64,000 nucleotides of DNA from Spiroplasma phoeniceum (GTDB lineage Bacteria; Bacillota_I; Bacilli_A; Mycoplasmatales; Mycoplasmataceae), in NCBI GenBank assembly GCA_026239495.1, contig CP110830.1:62001-126000 (forward strand), written 5' to 3'. Position numbers and translations under genes: made by a program. Shown here in pieces: positions 2,313 to 61,061 of the stretch. Each line of letters starts with the position of its first letter. Positions within the stretch are counted from its first letter, which is position 1. The notes beneath the pieces were generated by a model. It was not told the DNA's origin. It ran no database searches and was given only the letters and a program-made list of their open reading frames with translations.

Positions 2313-2725
2313 TAGACTTCTTGCGATACCTGGTTTTATTATTAAAATATTATTATAAAATATAATTTATGAGGATATTAAATTATGAAATTTGATGAAT
2401 TTAAAAATATTAATGATAAAGAATGATTAAGATTAACAGGAATAAAACAAGATATTTTTAATAAAATGTTAGATATTTTACAAGTAGCTGAAATAGAAAA
2501 ATTTAAAAAAGGTGGCAAAGCTAATAAATTATCACTAGAAAATCGATTATTGATGACTTTATCGTATTGACGAGAATATCGAACTTATTTTCATCTTGGA
2601 AAAAATTTCGGAATTAGTGAAGCTAATTGTTATCGCAATATCAAGTGAATTGAAGATATTTTAATTAAACACCCTGATTTTCAGCAAGTTGCTGGTAAAA
2701 AAGCACTAATAAATGATTATTTTAA
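2313..2725 (+). mobile_element. IS-A (IS5-type), 5' partial copy
   Basis: This is the left 413 bp of IS-A: terminal TAGACTTCTTGC, leader, and transposase codons up to AINDYFN. It stops abruptly where the next, complete IS-A begins at a TA. The sequence is essentially identical to the corresponding part of the full copy at 2726. The missing right part does not reappear after the full copy. Confidence 0.9.
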
Positions 2726-3797
2726 TAGACTTCTTGCGATACCTGGTTTTATTATTAAAATATTATTATAAAATATAATTTATGAGGATATTAAATTATG
2801 AAATTTGATGAATTTAAAAATATTAATGATAAAGAATGATTAAGATTAACAGGAATAAAACAAGATATTTTTAATAAAATGTTAGATATTTTACAAGTAG
2901 CTGAAATAGAAAAATTTAAAAAAGGTGGCAAAGCTAATAAATTATCACTAGAAAATCGATTATTGATGACTTTATCGTATTGACGAGAATATCGAACTTA
3001 TTTTCATCTTGGAAAAAATTTCGGAATTAGTGAAGCTAATTGTTATCGCAATATCAAGTGAATTGAAGATATTTTAATTAAACACCCTGATTTTCAGCAA
3101 GTTGCTGGTAAAAAAGCACTAATAAATGATTATTTTAATGATAAAACTATTATTATTGATGTTACCGAAACCCTAATCCAACGCCCAAAAAAAGACAAAA
3201 ACAATCTTATTCTGGTAAAAAGAAAAAACACACTATTAAAACACAAGTAATTATCGAACAAGAAACCAAAAAAATTATTGCAACAAGTTTTTCGCTTGGT
3301 AAAAAACACGATTATGCTTTATTTAAAGAATCAAAAATCGCAATTTTAAAAAATACCAAATTAATAGTTGATAGTGGTTATCAAGGAATACAAAAAATTC
3401 ACAATAATGTTATAATGCCCACAAAGAAAACTAAGAAAAAACATTTAAATAAAGAACAAAAACAACATAATAGACTAGTTTCAAAAATAAGAATTATTAT
3501 TGAAAATATTTTTGCTATTCTTAAAAAATTTAAAATTATTACAGAAAAATATCGTAATCGAAGGAAACGATTTAGTTTAAGATTTAATTTAATTGCTTCA
3601 ATTTATAATTTACAATTATTATAGTTATCATAAAAGATTTATTTAAAATTAACGAATTTGAATAATAAAATAATTTTTCGTTGTGGCAAAATATTAAATT
3701 TTTAAATAAAAGACATAATTAATTAAAATTATAATTTTATATTAACCCCTTTTTACAAATATTTGAAATTATTTTAATGGGTTATGCAAGAAGTCTA
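2726..3797 (+). mobile_element. IS-A (IS5-type), complete copy
   Basis: 1072 bp between TA dinucleotides. The left end is GACTTCTTGCGATACC and the right end is the inverted complement of GACTTCTTGCATAACC, giving ~10 bp of exact and ~16 bp of imperfect terminal repeat. It contains one transposase read through a -1 frameshift. This and the copy at 46692 look like the two intact IS-A elements of the window. Confidence 0.92.
2798..3624 (+). CDS. IS5-family DDE transposase, made by -1 frameshift
   Basis: Frame 0 runs from ATG 2798 to TAA 3250. A run of seven A followed by G at 3187-3194 allows a -1 slip into the frame that ends at TAG 3624, giving about 275 residues. N-terminal ~80 residues: helix-turn-helix region. 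First catalytic Asp is in IIIDVTE near 119, second in VDSGYQG near 198, and the Glu in RIIIENIF near 237. This is the DDE_Tnp_4 layout seen in IS5-group elements. All catalytic residues are present, so this copy may be active. Confidence 0.88.
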
Positions 3798-6245: not shown

Positions 6246-6321
6246 GCTGTCTTAGCTCAATGGGCAGAGCAAATGACTTGTAATCAGTAGGTTGGCAGCT
6301 CAACCCCAGCCAGCCCAGCCA
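6246..6321 (+). tRNA. tRNA-Thr (TGT), degenerate
   Basis: The D arm and anticodon loop CTTGTAA are normal for tRNA-Thr, and it sits in the usual position of a mollicute tRNA cluster. However, the acceptor has a mismatch (GCTGTCT against AGCCAGC), the anticodon stem has one mismatch, and the T arm (GGCAGCTCAACCCC) lacks the usual TTCAA loop and does not pair. The 3' end reads CCCAGCCA instead of an acceptor plus NCCA. It may be nonfunctional, or the sequence may contain errors. Confidence 0.7.
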
Positions 6322-7102: not shown

Positions 7103-8334
7103 TAGACTTCTTGCGATACCTGGTTTTATTATTAAAATATTATTATAAAATATAATTTATGATGATATTAAATTATGAAATTTGGTAGTAAGAAAAAGGT
7201 TGAGGTTTTGGTATAAAAATTATTTTTTTTACTATTATTGATGAATTTAAAACAATAATAAATCAGGATTTTTAAAAATTTATCCAATTATTTTATTTAT
7301 ATTTTTTATAAAACCTCAAATTTTGTAATGCTATCTGAAATTTGATGAATTTAAAAATATTAATGATAAAGAATGATTAAGATTAACAGGAATAAAACAA
7401 GATATTTTTAATAAAATGTTAGATATTTTACAAGTAGCTGAAATAGAAAAATTTAAAAAAGGTGGCAAAGCTAATAAATTATCACTAGAAAATCGATTAT
7501 TGATGATTTTATCGTATTGACGAGAATATCGAACTTATTTTCATCTTGGAAAAAATTTCGGAATTAGTGAAGCTAATTGTTATCGCAATATCAAGTGAAT
7601 TGAAGATATTTTAATTAAACACCTTGATTTTCAGCAAGTTGCTGGTAAAAAAGCACTAATAAATGATTATTTTAATGATAAAACTATTATTATTGATGCC
7701 ACCGAAACCCCAATCCAACGCCCAAAAAAAGACAAAAACAATCTTATTCTGGTAAAAAGAAAAAACACACTATTAAAACACAAGTAATTATCGAACAAGA
7801 AACCAAAAAAATTATTGCAACAAGTTTTTCACTTGGTAAAAAACACGATTATGCTTTATTTAAAGAATCAAAAATCGCAATTTTAAAAAATACCAAATTA
7901 ATAGTTGATAGTGGTTATCAAGGAATACAAAAAATTCACAATAATGTTATAATGCCCACAAAGAAAACTAAGAAAAGACATTTAAATAAAGAACAAAAAC
8001 AACATAATAGACTAGTTTCAAAAATAAGAATTATTATTGAAAATATTTTTGCTATTCTTAAAAAATTTAAAATTATTACAGAAAAATATAGAAATCGCAG
8101 AAAACGATTTAGTTTAAGATTTAATTTAATTGCTTCAATTTATAATTTATAATTATTATAGTTATCATAAAAGATTTATTTAAAATTAACGAATTTGAAT
8201 AATAAAATAATTTTTTGTTGTGGCAAAATATTAAATTTTTAAATAAAAGACATAATTAATTAAAATTATAATTTTATATTAACCCCTTTTTACAAATATT
8301 TGAAATTATTTTAATGGGTTATGCAAGAAGTCTA
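7103..8334 (+). mobile_element. IS-A inserted in the IS3-type element; itself carries a small repeat insertion
   Basis: IS-A ends at both sides of a TA target. Its transposase start is cut after the first codons by a 152-bp insertion (7185-7336), so this copy is inactive. The rest, from the resumed GAAATTTGATGAATT at 7337 to the C-terminus, is well preserved. The uninterrupted IS3 relative at ~41658 confirms the insertion point. Confidence 0.88.
7185..7336. mobile_element. ~152-bp non-autonomous (MITE-like) element, copy 1
   Basis: Inserted in the IS-A transposase start codon region with a perfect 8-bp target duplication GAAATTTG (7177-7184 and 7337-7344). The reverse complement closely matches 45969-46119. 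Imperfect terminal inverted repeats contain TTGAGGTTTT at both ends. There is no coding capacity. Confidence 0.85.
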
Positions 8335-29040: not shown

Positions 29041-30113
29041 ATTTATAATTTACAATTATTATAGTTATCATAAAAGATTTATTTAAAATTAACGAATTTG
29101 AATAATAAAATAATTTTTCGTTGTGGCAAAATATTAAATTTTTAAATAAAAGACATAATTAATTAAAATTATAATTTTATATTAACCCCTTTTTACAAAT
29201 ATTTGAAATTATTTTAATTGGTTATGCAAGAAGTCTATTGAAGCAATTAAATTAAATCTTAAACTAAATAGTTTTCTACGATTTCTATATTTTTCTGTAA
29301 TAATTTTAAATTTTTTAAGAATAGCAAAAATATTTTCAATAATAATTCTTATTTTTGAAACTAGTCTATTATGTTGTTTTTGTTCTTTATTTAAATGTTT
29401 TTTCTTAGTTTTCTTTGTGGGCATTATAACATTATTGTAAATTTTTTGTATTCCTTGATAACCACTATCAACTATTAATTTGGTATTTTTTAAAATTGCG
29501 ATTTTTGATTCTTTAAATAAAGCATAATCGTGTTTTTTACCAAGTGAAAAACTTGTTGCAATAATTTTTTTGGTTTCTTGTTCGATAATTACTTGTGTTT
29601 TAATAGTGTGTTTTTTCTTTTTACCAGAATAAGATTGTTTTTGTCTTTTTTTGGGCGTTGGATTGGGGTTTCGGTAGCATCAATAATAATAGTTTTATAA
29701 TTAAAATAATCATTTATTAGTGCTTTTTTACCAGCAACTTGCTGAAAATCAGGGTGTTTAATTAAAATATCTTCAATTCACTTGATATTGCGATAACAAT
29801 TAGCTTCACTAATTTCGAAATTTTTTCCAAGATGAAAATAAGTTCGATATTCTCGTCAATACGATAAAGTCATCAATAATCGATTTTCTAGTGATAATTT
29901 ATTAGCTTTGCCACCTTTTTTAAATTTTTCTATTTCAGCTACTTGTAAAATATCTAACATTTTATTAAAAATATCTTGTTTTATTCCTGTTAATCTTAAT
30001 CATTCTTTATCATTAATATTTTTAAATTCATCAAATTTCATAATTTAATATCCTCATAAATTATATTTTATAATAATATTTTAATAATAAAACCAGGTAT
30101 CGCAAGAAGTCTA
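29041..30113 (-). mobile_element. IS-A with its right end inverted
   Basis: The body (29238-30113, minus) is a well-preserved IS-A from left end to the codons for NLIAS. The remaining ~197 bp of the right end (29041-29237) is present but flipped, so its terminal GCAAGAAGTCTA now abuts the middle of the element. The transposase (start 30041) therefore ends with foreign residues. The slippery A7 run is intact. Confidence 0.85.
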
Positions 30114-30404
30114 ATAAATATAAAATTAATGAAGGAAGACGCCAATTATATATTCGGGCAACCATTGATTGGCTAGAGTGGTAAAGACTTTAATAACATA
30201 TTAGTTTTCATAAAAATTATTTTTAATATAATGGCTTTTTAGATTGCAAAAAAAGTTATTTTAAGGTTAAATTAAATCATAAAATTAAAGAAACTTAATT
30301 TTGTAGACGTTTAACTAAATAATATAAAGAGTTTTTCAAAAAACCATAGTTTTTTCGTAATAACCGGTACCTAAAACTTTATTCTAGTTATTTTCTTAAT
30401 TTTT

Positions 30405-30433
30405 TTGCATTTTTATTAATAAGGTATTATAAT
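30405..30433 (+). promoter_or_regulatory. Promoter of the rimP-nusA-infB operon
   Basis: TTGCAT (30405-30410) and TATAAT (30428-30433) with 17-base spacing. It lies ~90 bases before the rimP remnant. The interval 30114-30400 shows no gene. Confidence 0.75.
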
Positions 30434-30455
30434 AATAAAGTAATTAAAACAGGTT

Positions 30456-30485
30456 AAAGAAAGAGCGCGGTTGTGCTCTTTCTTT
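30456..30485 (+). promoter_or_regulatory. Leader hairpin before rimP
   Basis: Perfect 11-bp stem AAAGAAAGAGC/GCTCTTTCTTT with an 8-base loop, between the promoter and first gene. Few T's follow, so it could be an attenuator or processing signal. Confidence 0.6.
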
Positions 30486-30521
30486 AATGCCATAAATTTA
30501 GTTATGTTTTATTAAGAAAGG

Positions 30522-31014
30522 ATGGCGTTGAATGTAACATTTTATACAACAAGAAACAAAATTAAAAGTATCTTTGGAAAATTATTTAGCAAAGCAAATT
30601 TAACTTTATCTGCAATTAATTATTTACAAGAGTTTGACATAAATGTTGTACAAGTGTTAATTGAAGATAAAACAACTGTGCTTAATTTAGAGCATCTAAC
30701 AGTTATTAGTGAAGAAATTAATGAATTGGGTCTATAGTCTTGATTTATTTTCAGAAGAATACTTGTTATAGCTTTTAACACCAGGTGCTGAGCGACCATT
30801 ACGAAATTGAAATAAACTACAACAACATTTTAAGGAGCGTGTTTATTTATAATTTAACGAAAAAGTCAATAATTTAGCTGAAGTTACTGGTGAATTATCA
30901 ATGGTTGATTAGCAACAAAATCTTACTATTGCTTATTTTGTTAAAGGTGCTCGAAAAACCTTACAAACAAATTATCAAAATATTAAATTTGCGCGTTGTG
31001 CGGTTAAATTTTAA
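30522..31014 (+). pseudogene. rimP: Ribosome maturation factor RimP, pseudogene
   Basis: Expected first gene of the nusA operon. The N-terminal ~70 codons (LFSKANLTLSAINYLQEFDI...) are open to TAG 30735. One base shift restores LDLFSEEYLL, then PGAERPLRNWNKLQQH (the conserved RimP motif GxxRPL), but TAG, TAA and TAG follow in that frame before the natural end VKGARKTL... at TAA 31014. At least four lesions, so not a single sequencing error. RimP binds the 30S precursor in maturation; transcription of downstream genes seems kept. Confidence 0.85.
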
Positions 31015-31033: not shown

Positions 31034-32446
31034 ATGATTGATGGTGCAAAATTATTGGCAACAATTGATGAAATTGTTAGTGAAAAACAAATTAGCCGTG
31101 ATTTAATTTTAGATTCAATTAAAGAAGGAATTAGGAAGGCTTATGAAAAAAATTTTGATCCAGAAGCAACAATTATTGTTGAGATTGATCAAAAAACAGG
31201 ACAAATTAAAGTTGAAAAAGAATTAATTGTTGTTAAAAAAGTAGAAGATGATTTATTAGAAATTGGTTTAAATGAAGCCAAAGAAAAATATGGTGAGCAA
31301 ATTACAATTGATGATAAAGTTTATGAACCAGTTAATTCAGAAGAATTTTCACGATTATCAATTTTCCAGGTTGGGCAAATTATTAAACAACAAATTAAAG
31401 AAGCAGAAAAGGATTCAATTTTTGATGAATATATTATCCAAAAAGGGCACTTAATGACAGGTGTTGTTATTGCTGCTGAAGAAAAATACTTATTAGTTGA
31501 AGTCGAACGAACATTTGCTTATATTCCTCGAAAAAATTTGATCTTTTCTGACCATTTTGAAGTTGGCCAACCAATTACTTTTTTAGCAGAAGATGTTGTT
31601 AAATCAAAAAATGCAGGACAAATTACTGGTTCACGAACAAGCAATGATTTTTTATATCGTTTATTAGAACGTGAGATTCCAGAAATTTTTGAGCAAGTAA
31701 TTGAAGTAAAAGCAATTGCTCGTGATCCTGGGCGTCGTAGTAAGATTGCTGTTTATAGTACAAATAAAAATATTGATCCAATTGGTGCTTGTGTTGGTAG
31801 CAAGGGCAGTCGGATTAATAAAGTAACAGCTGAATTACAAGATGAAAAAATTGATATTTGTATTTATGATAATAGTCAACAATTTGTTATTAACTCATTA
31901 TCACCCGTAAAAGTAATTTCAATTACAACTAATGACGAAGGAAAAGAAGCTGATGTTGTTGTTCCTGATGAGCAATTATCATTAGCAATTGGAAAAGGTG
32001 GAAGTGCCGCAAAATTAGTTGCAAAGCTAACAAAATGAAAACTAAACATTATGAGTTATAGTGAAGCGTTAACCAAACAAATTGAAATTTTATGAAATGG
32101 AAATTTAACCACTGATGAACTTAGTGCATTACAAGTTAAATTAAAAGATAAAATTAAACCAAAAGTCACTGTTGAAAAAAATACTGTTGATATAACAGCC
32201 GGTTTACTAGTTGAAAAATTTGAAATTATTGAAGAACAAAAGGTGGAAGAAACAATTATTTTAGATGAAGAAAATTATCATGTTGATGATTTAACAGAAT
32301 CAACTCCTAAAGTATTAGAAAATGAAATTAAAGAAATTGAAGACAATCTTTCTTATTTTGAGAGTGAACAATTTGAAAATCAAGATGATGATGACGATGA
32401 AATTAATTATGAAGACTATGATGATTATTATGATCAAGATAAGTAA
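31034..32446 (+). CDS. nusA: Transcription termination/antitermination factor NusA
   Basis: 470 residues. N-terminal RNA-polymerase-binding domain (residues 1-~125), S1 domain (TGVVIAAEEKYLLVEVERT, ~138-200), then KH1 and KH2 (GACVGSKGSRINKVTAEL and LSLAIGKGGSAAKLVAKL). After that comes a family-atypical acidic tail, the last ~60 residues very rich in Asp and Glu. AAAGGA precedes; ATG 31022 is an alternative start, but 31034 gives the conserved N-terminus. Reading TGA at 32036 as Trp is needed for the C-terminal third. Confidence 0.95.
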
Positions 32447-32465: not shown

Positions 32466-32741
32466 ATGACAAATCATAAAAAAATTCCCTTACGAAAATG
32501 TGTTGTTTCACAACAAATGTTACCAAAAAAAGAATTGGTACGAATTGTTAAGACGCCAAACGGGGAAATTATTATTGATCCAACCGGAAAGGCCAATGGG
32601 CGCGGTGCTTATTTACGACCAACATTAGAGATTTATGAAAAAGAAAAAAAGAGTCACTCGCTAGAACGTGCTTTAAAAACAAAGTTAACCGATCAATTTT
32701 ACGAAATGTTATATTGTGAAATTAGCGAAGGCTGAGATTAA
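32466..32741 (+). CDS. ylxR: YlxR-family protein
   Basis: 91 residues. KIPLRKCVVS near the N-terminus and GRGAYLRP near residue 45 are YlxR (DUF448) signatures. It lies between nusA and infB as in most Firmicutes and mollicutes. YlxR is a small RNA-binding protein; a role with RNase P has been proposed. TAGGAGG site 6 bases upstream. Confidence 0.92.
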
Positions 32742-32743
32742 CA

Positions 32744-33049
32744 ATGCTAGATCAAAAAGGATATAGTTATCTTGGTCTAGCCAAACGAGGGGGTAAACTA
32801 ATCACAGGGGTTTGTTTGTTAACTGCCATTCAACAAAAAACTGTTTATTTAGTATTAACAAGCAGTGATGTTGGTGCCACACAAGCAAAAAAATATCAAC
32901 AAAAATGTTTTTATTATAAGATCCCTTATTTTAGTTGCCTTGATTTCAATTTAACCCAACAAGCTTTAGGAACAAATAATGTTAAAATGATTGGTATTAG
33001 TGACCAACATCTTGCCCAACGGTTGCTGACATTATTAAATAATTCTTAA
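32744..33049 (+). CDS. ylxQ: L7Ae-family RNA-binding protein YlxQ
   Basis: 101 residues. LGLAKRGGKLITG near residue 10 and VYLVLTSSDVGA near 35 match the L7Ae/L30e fold. It starts 2 bases after the ylxR stop, in the conserved operon position before infB. Confidence 0.88.
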   Translation: MLDQKGYSYLGLAKRGGKLITGVCLLTAIQQKTVYLVLTSSDVGATQAKKYQQKCFYYKIPYFSCLDFNLTQQALGTNNVKMIGISDQHLAQRLLTLLNNS

Positions 33050-33072: not shown

Positions 33073-34926
33073 ATGATTAGTCAAAATAACAAACAAAATA
33101 AAAAAACATTAGCTAAAAAACAACGAAATCGGATTCAATCACAATTAAAAACGGTTGAAGCACATGTTACCGAAGGAGTTTTTGTTTATGATGAGGCATT
33201 AACTATTGCTGAGTTTGCCCAAAAAATTAATAAACCCGTTAGTGAAATTATTAAATACTTTTTTAGTAAGGGGATAATGTTAAATCAAAATACTTTTTTA
33301 ACTGAAGATCAATTGGGAGAGTTATGTTTAGAATTCGGGTTAGATTTTAAACGTGAAAAATCAGTAACACATGAAAACTTAATTGAAAGTTTTGAAGTTA
33401 ATGATGACCCTGCTTCGTTAGAAAAACGACCACCAATTGTCACAATTATGGGCCATGTTGATCATGGAAAAACAACCCTATTAGATACCATTCGTAATAC
33501 TAATGTGGTAAGTACAGAACAGGGTGGAATTACACAACATATCGGCGCTTATCAAATTAAAACGAAACATGGCGAAAAGATTACCTTTGTTGATACTCCT
33601 GGACATGAAGCTTTTACACAAATGCGCGCACGAGGGAGTGCAGTAACAGATATTGTTGTACTAGTTGTTGCCGCTGATGATGGTGTAATGTTGCAAACTA
33701 AAGAAGCCATTGATCATGCCAAAGCAGCCGGAGTACCAATTATTGTTTTTGTTAATAAAATGGATAAAGTTGGAGTAAACTTAGATAATATTTTAATGCA
33801 ACTATCACAAGAAGAATTAACCCCAGAAGAGTGAGGAGGAACAACTCCTTATGTTAAAGGAAGTGCTAAAGATAAACAAGGAATTGATGAATTATTAGAT
33901 ACAATTTTATTAATGGCTGATTTAATGGAATTAAAAGCAAATCCAAATCGTTTTGCGTTAGGAACAGTGCTTGAATCACACTTAAATCGTGGTTTAGGAC
34001 CAGTTGCAACACTATTGGTGCAATCAGGAACATTGAATATTAAAGATGCCTTAGTTGTTGGCTATACATTTGGTTATGTTCGTGATTTATCTGATGAGAG
34101 TGGTAAAAAAATTAAATCAGCAGGACCGTCAACTTCAGTTATGATTCATGGTTTAAATGAAGTACCAAATGCTGGAGACCGTTTTATGGTTTTTCGAGAT
34201 GAAAAATTAGCGCGTGAAATTGCTTTAAAACGAAAAACAATTGATACAATGAATAAACGTTATAAAAATCAAAATTTCTCGTTAGAAAGTTTATCGGCCC
34301 AAATTAAAGATGGACAATTAAAACAAATTAATATTATTTTAAAAGCTGATACTCAAGGAACAGTTGAAGCGGTAAAAGCAAGTCTATTAAAAATTAATAT
34401 TCCAGGTGTAAGAATTAATGTTTTACGAGCAACTGTTGGGGCAATTTCTGAAAGTGATATAACATTAGGTTTAGCTAGTCAAGCATTTATTGCCGGTTTT
34501 AATGTTCGCCCAACATCTCATGTTCGGAAAAAAGCCGAAGACGAAGGTGTTACAATTCGTTTGCATACAATTATTTATAAATTAACTGAAGAAATAGTTG
34601 CCGCAGCGGAAGGAATGTTAGATCCAGAAATGGTTGAAGAAGTGTTAGGACAAGCGGAAGTACGTCAAATTTTCCGTCATTCTGATATTGGAACTATTGC
34701 TGGTTGTTATGTTACTGATGGTATTATTCCACGAAAATCACGAGTTAGAATTTTACGTGATGGAGTTATTGTCTATAGTGGTGAATTATCATCATTAAAA
34801 CACGTCAAAGATGATATTAAAGAAGCCAAAACAGGGGCCGAATGTGGACTAACAATTAAAAACTATAATGATTTAAAAGAACAAGATGTTATTGAAGTTT
34901 ATACCGAGAAAGCCGCTACAAAGTAA
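33073..34926 (+). CDS. infB: Translation initiation factor IF-2
   Basis: 617 residues, short as usual in mollicutes because the N-terminal extension is reduced. IF2_N domain ([18 protein letters not shown], ~35-85). G domain: GHVDHGKTT near 126, DTPGHEAF near 175, NKMDK near 229. Domains II and III, and the C-terminal fMet-tRNA-binding domain (GQAEVRQIF...[10 protein letters not shown]-like), follow. GGAG site upstream of ATG 33073. GTPase that brings fMet-tRNA to the 30S subunit. Confidence 0.96.
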
Positions 34927-39907: not shown

Positions 39908-40503
39908 TAGACTTCTTGCGATACCTGGTTTTATTATTAAAATATTATTATAAAATATAATTTATGAGGATGTTAAATTATGAAATTTGATGAATTTAAA
40001 AATATTAATGATAAAGAATGATTAAGATTAACAGGAATAAAACAAGATATTTTTAATAAAATGTTAGATATTTTACAAGTAGATGAAATAGAAAAATTTA
40101 AAAAAGGTGGCAAAGCTAATAAATTATCACTAGAAAATCGATTATTGATGACTTTATCGTATTGACGAGAATATCGAACTTATTTTCATCTTGCTAAAAG
40201 TTTTGATATTAGTGAAGCTAATTGTTATCGCAATATCAAGTGAATTGAAGATATTTTAATTAAACACCCTGATTTTCAGCAAGTTGCTGGTAAAAAAGCA
40301 CTAATAAATGATTATTTTAATGATAAAACTATTATTATTGATGCTACCGAAACCCCAATCCAACGCCCAAAAAAAGACAAAAACAATCTCATTCTGGTAA
40401 AAATAAAAAACACACTATTAAAACACAAGTAATTATCGAACAAGAAACCAAAAAAATTATTGCAACAAGTTTTTCACTTGGTAAAAAACACGATTATGCT
40501 TTA
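39908..40503 (+). mobile_element. IS-A 5' part, truncated
   Basis: Left end, leader and transposase codons up to KHDYAL, then cut by the inverted IS-B below. The rest is missing. Confidence 0.88.
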
Positions 40504-46691: not shown

Positions 46692-47763
46692 TAGACTTCT
46701 TGCATAACCCATTAAAATAATTTCAAATATTTGTAAAAAGGGGTTAATATAAAATTATAATTTTAATTAATTATGTCTTTTATTTAAAAATTTAATATTT
46801 TGCCACAACGAAAAATTATTTTATTATTCAAATTCGTTAATTTTAAATAAATCTTTTATGATAACTATAATAATTGTAAATTATAAATTGAAGCAATTAA
46901 ACTAAATCTTAAACTAAATCGTTTTTTACGATTTCTATATTTTTCTGTAATAATTTTAAATTTTTTAAGAATAGCAAAAATATTTTCAATAATAATTCTT
47001 ATTTTTGAAAATAGTCTATTATGTTGTTTTTGTTCTTTATTTAAATGTTTTTTCTTAGTTTTCTTTGTGTGCATTATAACATTATTGTGAATTTTTTGTA
47101 TTCCTTGATAACCACTATCAACTATTAATTTGGTATTTTTTAAAATTGCGATTTTTGATTCTTTAAATAAAGCATAATCGTGTTTTTTACCAAGTGAAAA
47201 ACTTGTTGCAATAATTTTTTTGGTTTCTTGTTCGATAATTACTTGTGTTTTAATAGTGTGTTTTTTCTTTTTACCAGAATAAGATTGTTTTTGTCTTTTT
47301 TTGGGCGTTGGATTGGGGTTTCGGTAACATCAATAATAATAGTTTTATCATTAAAATAATCATTTATTAGTGCTTTTTTACCAGCAACTTGCTGAAAATC
47401 AGGGTGTTTAATTAAAATATCTTCAATTCACTTGATATTGCGATAACAATTAGCTTCACTAATTCCGAAATTTTTTCCAAGATGAAAATAAGTTCGATAT
47501 TCTCGTCAATACGATAAAGTCATCAATAATCGATTTTCTAGTGATAATTTATTAGCTTTGCCACCTTTTTTAAATTTTTCTATTTCAGCTACTTGTAAAA
47601 TATCTAACATTTTATTAAAAATATCTTGTTTTATTCCTGTTAATCTTAATCATTCTTTATCATTAATATTTTTAAATTCATCAAATTTCATAATTTAATA
47701 TCCTCATAAATTATATTTTATAATAATATTTTAATAATAAAACCAGGTATCGCAAGAAGTCTA
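46692..47763 (-). mobile_element. IS-A, complete copy in the phage tail gene
   Basis: 1072 bp, same length as the copy at 2726. Together with the adjoining partial copy it is bordered by TA; the tail gene resumes in frame after removal. Confidence 0.92.
46865..47691 (-). CDS. IS5-family transposase (IS-A), intact with -1 frameshift
   Basis: ATG at 47691, slippery A7 run before G near 47300, stop at 46865. No premature stop in code 4. Differs from the 2798 copy by a few residues (DVTETPIQRP; MHTKKTKKK in place of MPTKKTKKK). Probably active. Confidence 0.85.
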
Positions 47764-48368
47764 TTCTTTAAATAAAGCATAATCGTGTTTTTTACCAAGC
47801 GAAAAACTTGTTGCAATAATTTTTTTGGTTTCTTGTTCGATAATTACTTGTGTTTTAATAGTGTGTTTTTTCTTTTTACCAGAATAAGATTGTTTTTGTC
47901 TTTTTTTGGGCGTTGGATTGGGGTTTCGGTAGCATCAATAATAATAGTTTTATAATTAAAATAATCATTTATTAGTGCTTTTTTACCAGCAACTTGCTGA
48001 AAATCAGGGTGTTTAATTAAAATATCTTCAATTCACTTGATATTGCGATAACAATTAGCTTCACTAATTCCGAAATTTTTTCCAAGATGAAAATAAGTTC
48101 GATATTCTCGTCAATATGATAAAGTCATCAATAATCGATTTTCTAGTGATAATTTATTAGCTTTGCCACCTTTTTTAAATTTTTCTATTTCAGCTACTTG
48201 TAAAATATCTAACATTTTATTAAAAATATCTTGTTTTATTCCTGTTAATCTTAATCATTCTTTATCATTAATATTTTTAAATTCATCAAATTTCATAATT
48301 TAATATCCTCATAAATTATATTTTATAATAATATTTTAATAATAAAACCAGGTATCGCAAGAAGTCTA
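47764..48368 (-). mobile_element. IS-A, 5' partial copy in tandem
   Basis: Left 605 bp of IS-A (terminus at 48368, transposase codons to LFKE) directly joined at TA to the complete copy in the same orientation. The 3' part is absent. Confidence 0.9.
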
Positions 48369-53688: not shown

Positions 53689-54761
53689 TAGACTTCTTGC
53701 GATACCTGGTTTATTATTAAAATATTATTATAAAATATAATTTATGAGGATATTAAATTATGAAATTTGATGAATTTAAAAATATTAATGATAAAGAATG
53801 ATTAAGATTAACAGGAATAAAACAAGATATTTTTAATAAAATGTTAGATATTTTACAAGTAGCTGAAATAGAAAAATTTAAAAAAAGTGGCAAAGATAAT
53901 AAATTATCACTAGAAAATCGATTATTGATGACTTTATCGTATTGACGAGAATATCGAACTTATTTTCATCTTGGAAAAAATTTTGGAATTAGTGAAGCTA
54001 ATTGTTATCGCAATATCAAGTGAATTGAAGATATATTTTAATTAAACACCCTGATTTTCAGCAAGTTGCCTGGTAAAAAAGAACTAATAAATGATTATTT
54101 TAATTATAAAACTATTATTATTGATGCTACCGAAACCCCAATCCAACGCCCAAAAAAAGACAAAAAAATCTTATTCTGGTAAAAAGAAAAAACACACTAT
54201 TAAAACACAAGTAATTATCGAACAAGAAACCAAAAAAATTATTGCAACAAGTTTTTCACTTGGTAAAAAACACGATTATGCTTTATTTAAAGAATCAAAA
54301 ATCGCAATTTTAAAAAATACCAAATTAATAGTTGATAGTGGTTATCAAGGAATACAAAAAATTCACAATAATGTTATAATGCCCACAAAGAAAACTAAGA
54401 AAAAACATTTAAATAAAGAACAAAAACAACATAATAGACTAGTTTCAAAAATAAGAATTATTATTGAAAATATTTTTGCTATTCTTAAAAAATTTAAAAT
54501 TATTACAGAAAAATATAGAAATCGTAGAAAACGATTTAGTTTAAGATTTAATTTAATTGCTTCAATTTATAATTTACAATTATTATAGTTATCATAAAAG
54601 ATTTATTTAAAATTAACGAATTTGAATAATAAAATAATTTTTCGTTGTGGCAAAATATTAAATTTTTAAATAAAAGACATAATTAATTAAAATTATAATT
54701 TTATATTAACCCCTTTTTACAAATATTTGAAATTATTTTAATGGGTTATGCAAGAAGTCTA
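53689..54761 (+). mobile_element. IS-A, frameshifted copy
   Basis: 1073 bp with both ends. The transposase (ATG 53760) carries small indels (GATATATTTTAATT, +2; GTTGCCTGG, +1; AAAAAAATC in place of AAAAACAATC), so the frame is lost near residue 95. The C-terminal 140 codons remain open to 54588. It ends the phage module. Confidence 0.88.
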
Positions 54762-56653: not shown

Positions 56654-57523
56654 CTATTGTTCTTGCATAATGCGAAAATAATCATTATAAAAAAATTGTG
56701 GAATAACATCTGCTTGAACTAACGCTTTTATTTTGCAATGTGGCTCATGCAAATGCAAGCAAGTTCGAAACTTACATTCATTAGCATATTGATTAAATAA
56801 ATGATAAGCGCGGGGCAATTCTCCTTTTTCATAATCTCTTAAATCAAATGTTGAAAAACCTGGTGTATCAGCAATCATTCCATCTAATAACTCATATAAT
56901 GCACTAGCTGTCGTTGTATGTTTTCCGCGGCCTAATGCTTTAGAAATTTCTTGCGTTTTAATTATCTCTGCTTGTAATATCGTATTTATAGTTGATGATT
57001 TCCCACTACCAGTTTGTCCAGTTAACACTGTGATTTTATTCTGAAAAAGTTGTTCAAATTGTTGTCATACCTTTTTATCATCTTTTTTATTACTAATAAA
57101 ATAAACTTCATAACCTAACTTTGGATATCAGTTAAAATATTTTTGATAAAGTTCATCTGTTTTAACTAAATCTTTTTTAGTAAAAACAATAACTGGTTTT
57201 AAGCTTTTGTATTCAATAAATGCTAAATATTTATTTAATAAATATGAATTAAAAGCCGGTTCTACCATTGCTGTAATAATAATAACTTGATCAACATTAG
57301 CAATTCGTGGCCGGTATAATTTATTTTTACGCGGCTCAATTTGATAAATAATTCCTTGCTTGTCATTTTGAATTTCAAATTGAACATAATCACCAACAAC
57401 TGGTTTAATTTCTTGATGACGAAATAACCCTTTTGCTTTGCAAGCATAAATTTGATGGTCAATATCATTTTTAACATAACAAAAATCGCTAACAATGCGA
57501 ATAATCATTCCTGTTTGATGCAT
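56654..57523 (-). CDS. rsgA: Ribosome small-subunit GTPase RsgA
   Basis: 289 residues. OB domain (1-~70), circularly permuted G domain with FTKKDL (G4) near 115, P-loop GQTGSGKSS near 168, DTPGFSTF (G3) near 222, and a C-terminal zinc site CKFRTCLHLHEPHC near 250. It assists 30S maturation, acting with late assembly factors. Starts 7 bases after prkC. Confidence 0.94.
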
Positions 57524-58637: not shown

Positions 58638-59399
58638 TTAGTCTATTATTTCAAAAACAATTCCAGTTAAATTATCAGTTGATAGATTTTCTAATGCCCG
58701 ATCAATTAAAATTTTAACCTTATCGTTTAATTTATTTGCTGATTTTAATGTTTCAATTAAATCAATTTCATCAACATAATCATAAATTCCATCGGTGGTT
58801 AATAAATACTGTCCTTTAATATCTTCAATAACATAAGTATCAATTTTTAAATTCTTTGTTGGCCCTAAAGCACTTGTTAATACTTTTCAAAAAGTATGGA
58901 TATTATATTGTTTTTTATATTGACCTTTAAATTCTAATTCTTGTTTTTCTAGATATTCTGTTGAATTTTCCATATTTTGGTCAGTAGTAATTTGATAAAT
59001 TTTATCATGATGTAATTTATATAACCGTGAATCACCAATATTAATAACATATACTTTTCCATTAGCAATTAAAGCAGCAACAACTGTTGTTCCCATATCA
59101 CTTGTATCAGGATAAATTTGAGCATAAGTAACCATTCCCTGTTGAATTGCTAAAATTGTTTGACGAAATCATTTATTAATTTCTTCATCGGACAAATGAT
59201 TAAAATTTGTCCGTTTAAAATGTTCCACCAAACTATCAACAGCCATTTTACTGGCAACTTCGCCATGCTGATGACCACCCATCCCATCACAAACAATGGC
59301 AATATAATTGTTAAAACTATTATTGGCAAAATCAAAGTAATCTTGATTACTAGTACGATAAGCACCAATATCAGTTTTGTATCCAAACCGTATTTGCAT
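58638..59399 (-). CDS. prpC: PP2C-type protein phosphatase
   Basis: 253 residues. RTSNQD near 15, VCDGMGGH near 37 (metal Asp), INIGDSRLY near 118, TTDGIYDYV near 205 and DNLTGIVF at the end are the PPM motifs. Dephosphorylates PrkC targets. It starts 2 bases after the rlmN stop. A diverged partial copy lies inverted at 60621. Confidence 0.94.
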
Positions 59400-59401
59400 A
59401 A

Positions 59402-60439
59402 TTATTTTATAATAATCCCTTCATTTTTAGCTCGTAATTTACCAAAAGCAACATCAATATCGTGCCCAAATTCACGACGAACAATACAATTAATTTTTTG
59501 CTGTTGTAAAGTTTCAAAAAATTGATTAATTTTTGTACTGCGTTGATACCCATTTTCTGCAACTGTATTATAAGGAATTAAACTAACATAAGCATTTAAT
59601 CCTCGAATTAACTTTGCTAATTCTAATGCTGCTTCACGACTATCATTAACATTCTCAATTAAAATATACTCAAAAGTAACACGCCGATTAGTTAACTCAA
59701 TATAATAACGAACTGCATCTATTAATTTTTCTACTGGATAAGCTTTATTAATTGGCATTAATTGATTACGAATCGTATTATTTGGAGCATGTAATGAAAT
59801 TGCTAAATTAACTTGGGTCTTTAATTCTGCAAATTGTTTAATTTTTGGAACTAACCCACAAGTAGAAATTGTAATATGGCGCGCACCAATGTGATAGCCT
59901 TTTGAGTCATTAATAATGTTGACAAACTTAAGCGTATTATCAAAATTATCAAATGGTTCACCAATTCCCATTACAACAACATGGCTTACACGTTCATTTG
60001 TTGTTGCTAAATAACGATTAACCATCATAACTTGTTGAACAATTTCGGCAGTTGATAAATTCAGGGTTTTTTTTAATAGTCCTGAGGCACAAAAAGTGCG
60101 AGCCATATTACAACCAACTTGTGTTATAACACAAACAGAATTACCATAACTTTGAGGCATTAAAACTGTTTCAATTTTATAACCATCTGTTAACTGAAAC
60201 AAAAACTTTACTGTTCCATCTTTTGACTGTTGTTGAATAACAATTTTTAATGGCTCAATCGTATAGTATTCTTGTAATTTATTACGATCAGTTTTAGAAA
60301 TATTTGTCATTTCATCAAAAGAATATATTTTTTTGACATATATTCAATCAAAGATTTGCTCTGCTAAATACTTTTTAAAACCATGCGCAACTAAATCTAA
60401 TTGTAATTCCTCTTTTGGATATCCAAAAATTGATGTCAT
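59402..60439 (-). CDS. rlmN: RlmN-type radical SAM methyltransferase lacking two essential cysteines
   Basis: 345 residues, normal length. Recognised from [56 protein letters not shown] and the C-terminal [10 protein letters not shown]. RlmN/Cfr enzymes bind the 4Fe-4S cluster with CxxxCxxC; here it reads CNMARTFC, the middle Cys being Arg (CGC). The second methyl-carrying Cys in the usual ACGQL is Phe (VAFGKL). The first catalytic Cys (VCV) remains. By family chemistry this protein should not methylate A2503 or tRNA A37. ATG 60439 has GGAG 8 bases upstream. Confidence 0.88.
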
Positions 60440-60551
60440 TATTTTTCGCTCCATTTTTACATATTATAATTTTATCACAAAATAGCATTTGTTAAAATAG
60501 GCAAAAAAAATATTAATTTTTTAATTAATTTTTTTTGATATTTATTTAATT

Positions 60552-60620: not shown

Positions 60621-61061
60621 ATGCGGTTTGGATTCAAAACTGATATTGGTGCTTATCGTACTAGTAATCAAGATTGCTTTCATTTTGCCAATAATATTTT
60701 TAACAATTATATTGCCATTGTTTGTGATGGGATGGGTGGTCATCAGCATGGCGAAGTTGCCAGTAAAATGGCTGTTGATAGTTTGGTGGAACATTTTAAA
60801 CTGGCAAAGTTTAATCATTTGTCCGATGAAGAAATTAATAAATGATTTCGTCAAACAATTTTAGCAATTAAACATGAAATGCTTACTTATGCTCAAATTT
60901 ATCCTGATACAAGTGATATGGTAACAACAGTTGGTGCTGCTTTAATTGCTAATTGAAAAGTATATTTTATTAATATTGGTGATTCACGGTTATATAAATT
61001 ACATCATGATAAAATTTATCAAATTACTACTGACCAAAATATTGAAAATTCAAATAATTAA
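60621..61061 (+). pseudogene. Partial, inverted copy of prpC
   Basis: 147 codons, highly similar to residues 1-~143 of PrpC (NQD, DGMGGH, GDSRLY present), ending by TAA just after the homology stops near 61052. Lacks the C-terminal TDG and DN metal residues. No ribosome binding site of its own is apparent. Confidence 0.85.

Follow-up and report, generated by a model that had tools for sequence, protein, structure and literature searches.

The window analyzed here, a stretch of 64,000 nucleotides from a Spiroplasma phoeniceum genome of 2,179,570 bases (single contig, 99.75% complete), carries an operon running from nusA to infB, a promoter-like site and a leader hairpin upstream of it and, between leader and nusA, the remains of rimP (Table 1). 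Sequences were read under genetic code 4, with TGA corresponding to tryptophan in intact genes. The nusA, ylxR, ylxQ and infB frames are open and full length under this code, as described in the initial annotation, which had also regarded the promoter and the leader hairpin as intact. For the hairpin this description is borne out by its occurrence in each of the 14 genus members, at the same place upstream of rimP-nusA, with a stem (GAGCAC/GTGCTC) that is almost invariant. The hairpin matched no Rfam family at gathering score and is a possible regulator of the operon. For the promoter-like site the description stands in part: the TATAAT box is kept in an alignment of close relatives, but the full site is an incomplete match and the scan of the region did not yield more sites than expected by chance.

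Table 1. Positions of features in the operon region and at other loci of the window
Feature	Position	Strand	Remarks
Promoter-like site TTTGCA-18-TATAAT	30404..30433	+	10/12 matches; site number in region not above chance
Leader hairpin GAAAGAGC...GCTCTTTC	30454..30487	+	Same place in 14/14 genus members; fold z = -5.4
rimP pseudogene	30532..31014	+	Ancestral ATG 30532, ancestral terminator TAA 31012-31014; from alignment to relatives
rimP nonsense codon 2	TAA 30535-30537	+	Alignment
rimP frameshift 1	30596..30599 (about 30598)	+	1-nt loss in A run vs close relatives
rimP frameshift 2	30727..30731 (about 30729)	+	1-nt gain vs all relatives; opposite sense
rimP nonsense codon 80	TAG 30769-30771	+	Alignment; same codon TAA in G011
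rimP nonsense codon 107	TAA 30850-30852	+	Alignment
rimP nonsense codon 127	TAG 30910-30912	+	Alignment
nusA	31034..32446	+	Intact, 470 aa; own ribosome-binding site just upstream
ylxR	32466..32741	+	Intact, 91 aa
ylxQ (L7Ae-like)	32744..33049	+	Intact, 101 aa; name from position and length; no Pfam match
infB (IF2)	33073..34926	+	Intact, 617 aa
tRNA-Thr	6246-6315	+	33.8 bits, not called by ARAGORN
RsgA-like GTPase	56654-57523		Open frame
PP2C-type phosphatase	58638-59399	-	Intact
rlmN	59402-60454	-	Full open frame
PP2C-type phosphatase, second copy	60621-61061	+	Truncated
Two-frame transposase copies	2385-3250, 7416-8152, 29589-30041, 39980-40432, 47239-48296, 53760-54588, others

Alignment with the 13 other genus members revealed that the rimP relic keeps its full ancestral length and can be aligned over all 160 codons. 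The start of RimP in the relatives is equivalent to the ATG at 30532, and the placement of the gene start at 30522 in the initial annotation was therefore corrected, the ATG at that position sitting in another, shifted frame. Four nonsense codons are present in the ancestral frame, at codons 2, 80, 107 and 127, in line with the several in-frame stops previously reported, whereas the single frameshift reported with them proved to be two 1-nt frameshifts of opposite sense, each of which restores the frame of the other. A TAG at 30735 is a mere consequence of the frameshift and the TAA at 31012-31014 is the normal rimP terminator, so that neither counts as a lesion. A conserved RimP motif region is still readable in the relic. 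The ribosome-binding site that formerly served rimP now stands before ATG TAA (30532-30537, + strand), so that a start-stop element of minimal length lies 5' of nusA.

When the source genome was searched with Pfam profiles no RimP_N match was obtained at E <= 0.001, whilst all 13 other genus members gave a match, and no continuous frame for the RimP_N domain is present in the source genome. A tblastn search of the genome with the read-through protein matched this locus alone. The second rimP elsewhere in the genome, for which the initial annotation had proposed a search, was thus found by neither approach. On the branch leading to the source genome alone, rimP has accumulated 3 silent and 17 replacement substitutions, as against 34 silent and 32 replacement substitutions in nusA, ylxR, ylxQ and infB together (Fisher p = 0.004). 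For rimP, the proportion of replacements cannot be told apart from that of neutral sequence (p = 0.78), with 16 replacements expected had the whole branch been neutral. In simulations of 23 neutral substitutions a mean of 1.4 stops arose and 4 or more stops were seen in 5% of runs; the four stops in rimP are thus towards the upper end for a fully neutral sequence and out of keeping with a constrained one, whilst the operon neighbours have no stops in 3.8 kb. The lesions and the neutral substitution rate together indicate that rimP is almost certainly dead and undergoing neutral decay in situ, and that its lesions are not read errors. Since the replacements observed match the neutral expectation for the entire branch, inactivation seems, from these small counts, to have occurred at around the time when this lineage and that of S. 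phoeniceum/G004 parted. The description of rimP as a pseudogene with several lesions, set in a nusA-infB operon that is intact apart from it, is thus upheld by the alignment to 13 relatives, the lack of a second copy and the neutral rate of substitution.

Two alternatives would leave rimP functional. Under the first, the lesions are products of sequencing or assembly and the gene is intact in the real genome. Both 1-nt indels do fall at short runs, which are prone to errors, and in G006, another genus member, 1 nt gained within a poly-A run breaks the frame of the essential gene infB (L022); this frameshift is likely an assembly error, or else recoding, and points to some sequence error in the G006 assembly. 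A read error would, however, strike neighbouring genes too, and damage limited to one gene is accordingly a signature of decay: the four nonsense substitutions and the excess of replacements are restricted to rimP, the 3.8 kb of flanking operon genes are free of lesions, and the source assembly is a nearly complete single contig. Error is thus very improbable, in agreement with the previous argument that several stops exclude a single misread base. Barely credible is the further alternative that rimP is still expressed, whether by recoding (stop readthrough combined with frameshifting) or as split domains such as a 71-aa frame at 30522-30737, notwithstanding that the protein motifs remain readable and that this frame, with its ATG at 30522, spans part of the N-terminal domain sequence. 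Stop-codon readthrough was rejected because, among the tRNA genes detected in the genome, there is no suppressor for TAG or TAA (no CUA or UUA anticodon); moreover, both codons terminate normal genes and the second codon of rimP is itself a stop. A split-domain protein was rejected because the 71-aa frame has no RimP_N or other Pfam match, and the initial ~24 residues of this frame are not in phase. Neutral substitution in rimP argues against expression in either form.

A different possibility supplements neutral decay of the gene as the best explanation and does not replace it, namely that the RimP protein is lost whilst the rimP DNA is selected as a 5' leader or promoter region for nusA, with the retained function residing in the leader hairpin and in the final ~57 nt of rimP. 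The last 19 codons of rimP change less than the remainder in intact and broken lineages alike; between the source genome and G007, 1 of the last 57 nt is changed compared with 27 of 423 elsewhere, and in G012 none of the 57 is changed. Conservation of the leader hairpin extends across the genus and, in E. coli, the distal portion of rimP contains a cold-responsive nusA promoter (PMC6511841). The slow change of this segment hints at a cis function for nusA. Against this, the comparison covers no more than 57 nt and a small number of genomes, constraint on the protein may account for the same bias where the gene is intact, and the promoter scan was not above chance, so that selection on the rimP DNA is considered somewhat unlikely. 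The untranslated stretch of 0.48 kb need not block nusA in any case, since nusA is directly preceded by a ribosome-binding site of its own and a domain search of the genome found no Rho RNA-binding domain.

To place the loss of rimP in context, relatives of the source genome were compared. In a tree of nusA-ylxR-ylxQ-infB the source adjoins G004 and G007 (S. phoeniceum P40), its nearest relatives among the compared genomes, followed by G012 and then by G002 and G005. Stops in rimP were also present in 3 of the 13 other genus members, mostly at different places. The G012 gene has a TAG at codon 34 together with replacements in the conserved STPGAERPLR motif, that of G011 has a TAA at codon 80, and that of G006 combines three stops with a gain of 4 nt and a loss of 1 nt, whilst the gene is intact in G003, the sister of G006. 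For G011 and G012 there is a single stop each, which by itself could be a sequencing error. Lesions are unshared between lineages save at codon 80, which is TAG in the source and TAA in G011. An ancestral lesion common to the source and G012 was rejected, their lesions being different. A profile search of the family gave a RimP_N match in 58 of 60 species, those without a match being the source and G019, an 85%-complete genome, and within the RimP_N match, that is for the N-terminal domain only, no TAA or TAG was found in family members outside the genus. Stops occur in 4/14 genus members (source included) and, in this test of the N-terminal domain, in 0/45 species elsewhere in the family (p = 0.002, although species are not independent samples). 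A class-wide sample of 394 genomes included 57 without a RimP_N match, a figure to be read with the reservation that the profile may miss diverged copies; of the 20 among these 57 that were listed, all but the source belong to two further families within the order. Loss of rimP seems from these comparisons to be recurrent and independent within the genus, and this apparent recurrence looks to be what is new beyond the initial annotation.

That annotation had associated the loss of rimP with decay of other translation-related functions, namely tRNA-Thr and rlmN. The tRNA-Thr gene is degraded in the source genome only, within an otherwise intact Asn-Glu-Val-Thr-Lys-Leu tRNA cluster, and is callable at this position in 13/13 relatives. 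The source genome, however, has an intact tRNA-Thr(UGU) elsewhere (G000:2019527-2019599); the decayed copy is therefore redundant and the claim that tRNA-Thr function is decaying was rejected. The proposed decay of rlmN holds in a different form, in that the frame is open but two conserved cysteines are gone: the radical-SAM motif CxxxCxxC reads CxxxRxxC, with the middle cysteine replaced by Arg, and the C-terminal DIDAACGQ reads DIDVAFGK, with cysteine replaced by Phe. The latter cysteine is presumably the catalytic, methyl-carrying residue (Cys355 of E. coli RlmN). Other genus members keep both cysteines wherever the stretch was read, and loss of both makes loss of RlmN activity plausible in the source. 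In G012 and G008 (S. poulsonii MSRO) rlmN is in pieces. The intact and truncated copies of a PP2C-type phosphatase gene, in opposite orientation, lie on either side of rlmN in the window. Many copies of a two-frame transposase (MKFDEFKNINDKEW... / ...RFSLRFNLIASIYNL) are also present in the window, consistent with IS expansion in this 2.18 Mb genome.

The relic shares with RimP (PF02576 RimP_N and PF17384 C-terminal SH3), the maturation factor of the nusA-infB operon, its place directly upstream of nusA, its 160-codon alignment and the readable motif. It differs from functional RimP in its destroyed frame, and without a RimP_N match at the above threshold the genome has no functional member. 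Previously RimP had been described as broadly conserved, a statement that does not hold for Mollicutes, where RbfA is found in all species, and RimM and RimP, like RlmN, in only a few (Grosjean et al. 2014, PMC4014445); this patchiness makes loss of rimP less surprising. In Mycoplasma bovis PG45 rimP is listed as a non-essential homolog (PMC6753880), and an E. coli rimP deletion strain is viable but shows a build-up of 30S intermediates in which the central pseudoknot has not formed (PMC4371863). Together with the distribution in Mollicutes these observations indicate that loss of rimP is tolerable and precedented. The present case concerns the same class of ribosome-assembly and rRNA-modification genes and the same direction of change as the patchy losses in Mollicutes (PMC4014445), with the differences that here the DNA is still recognizable and that loss appears repeated within one genus. 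The relic also resembles early-stage pseudogenes of host-associated bacteria in its multiple nonsense codons and frameshifts, its neutral substitutions and its setting in an IS-rich expanded genome; unlike such pseudogenes generally, it lies within an operon whose essential genes remain intact. It is a genuine pseudogene of a known kind and not mechanistically novel.

Genes for RimM and RbfA are intact in 14/14 genus members, and the frame in the window taken to be RsgA-like, an identity assigned from its sequence and not by a profile search, is open. RimP may thus have become dispensable in the clade because these other 30S assembly factors remain and because slow growth in insect or plant hosts would tolerate inefficient 30S assembly. 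A first inactivating hit in rimP would then have been followed by the accumulation of further hits, and the DNA may have been retained owing to its location, since with the promoter/leader on one side and nusA on the other its deletion could interfere with essential genes. An extended version of this account, in which the clade repeatedly loses RimP and keeps RimM, RbfA and RsgA since a change in rRNA or a ribosomal protein makes RimP unnecessary, with the dead rimP DNA acting in cis as a nusA leader, is improbable. No new system is revealed by these findings, as loss of RimP is already documented across Mollicutes. What the genus offers is several natural and apparently independent inactivations of rimP in close relatives, beside sister species with an intact gene. 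Such rimP-minus and rimP-plus relatives allow changes in the ribosome and in assembly factors upon loss of RimP to be compared, and also allow measurement of how long a pseudogene persists inside an operon.
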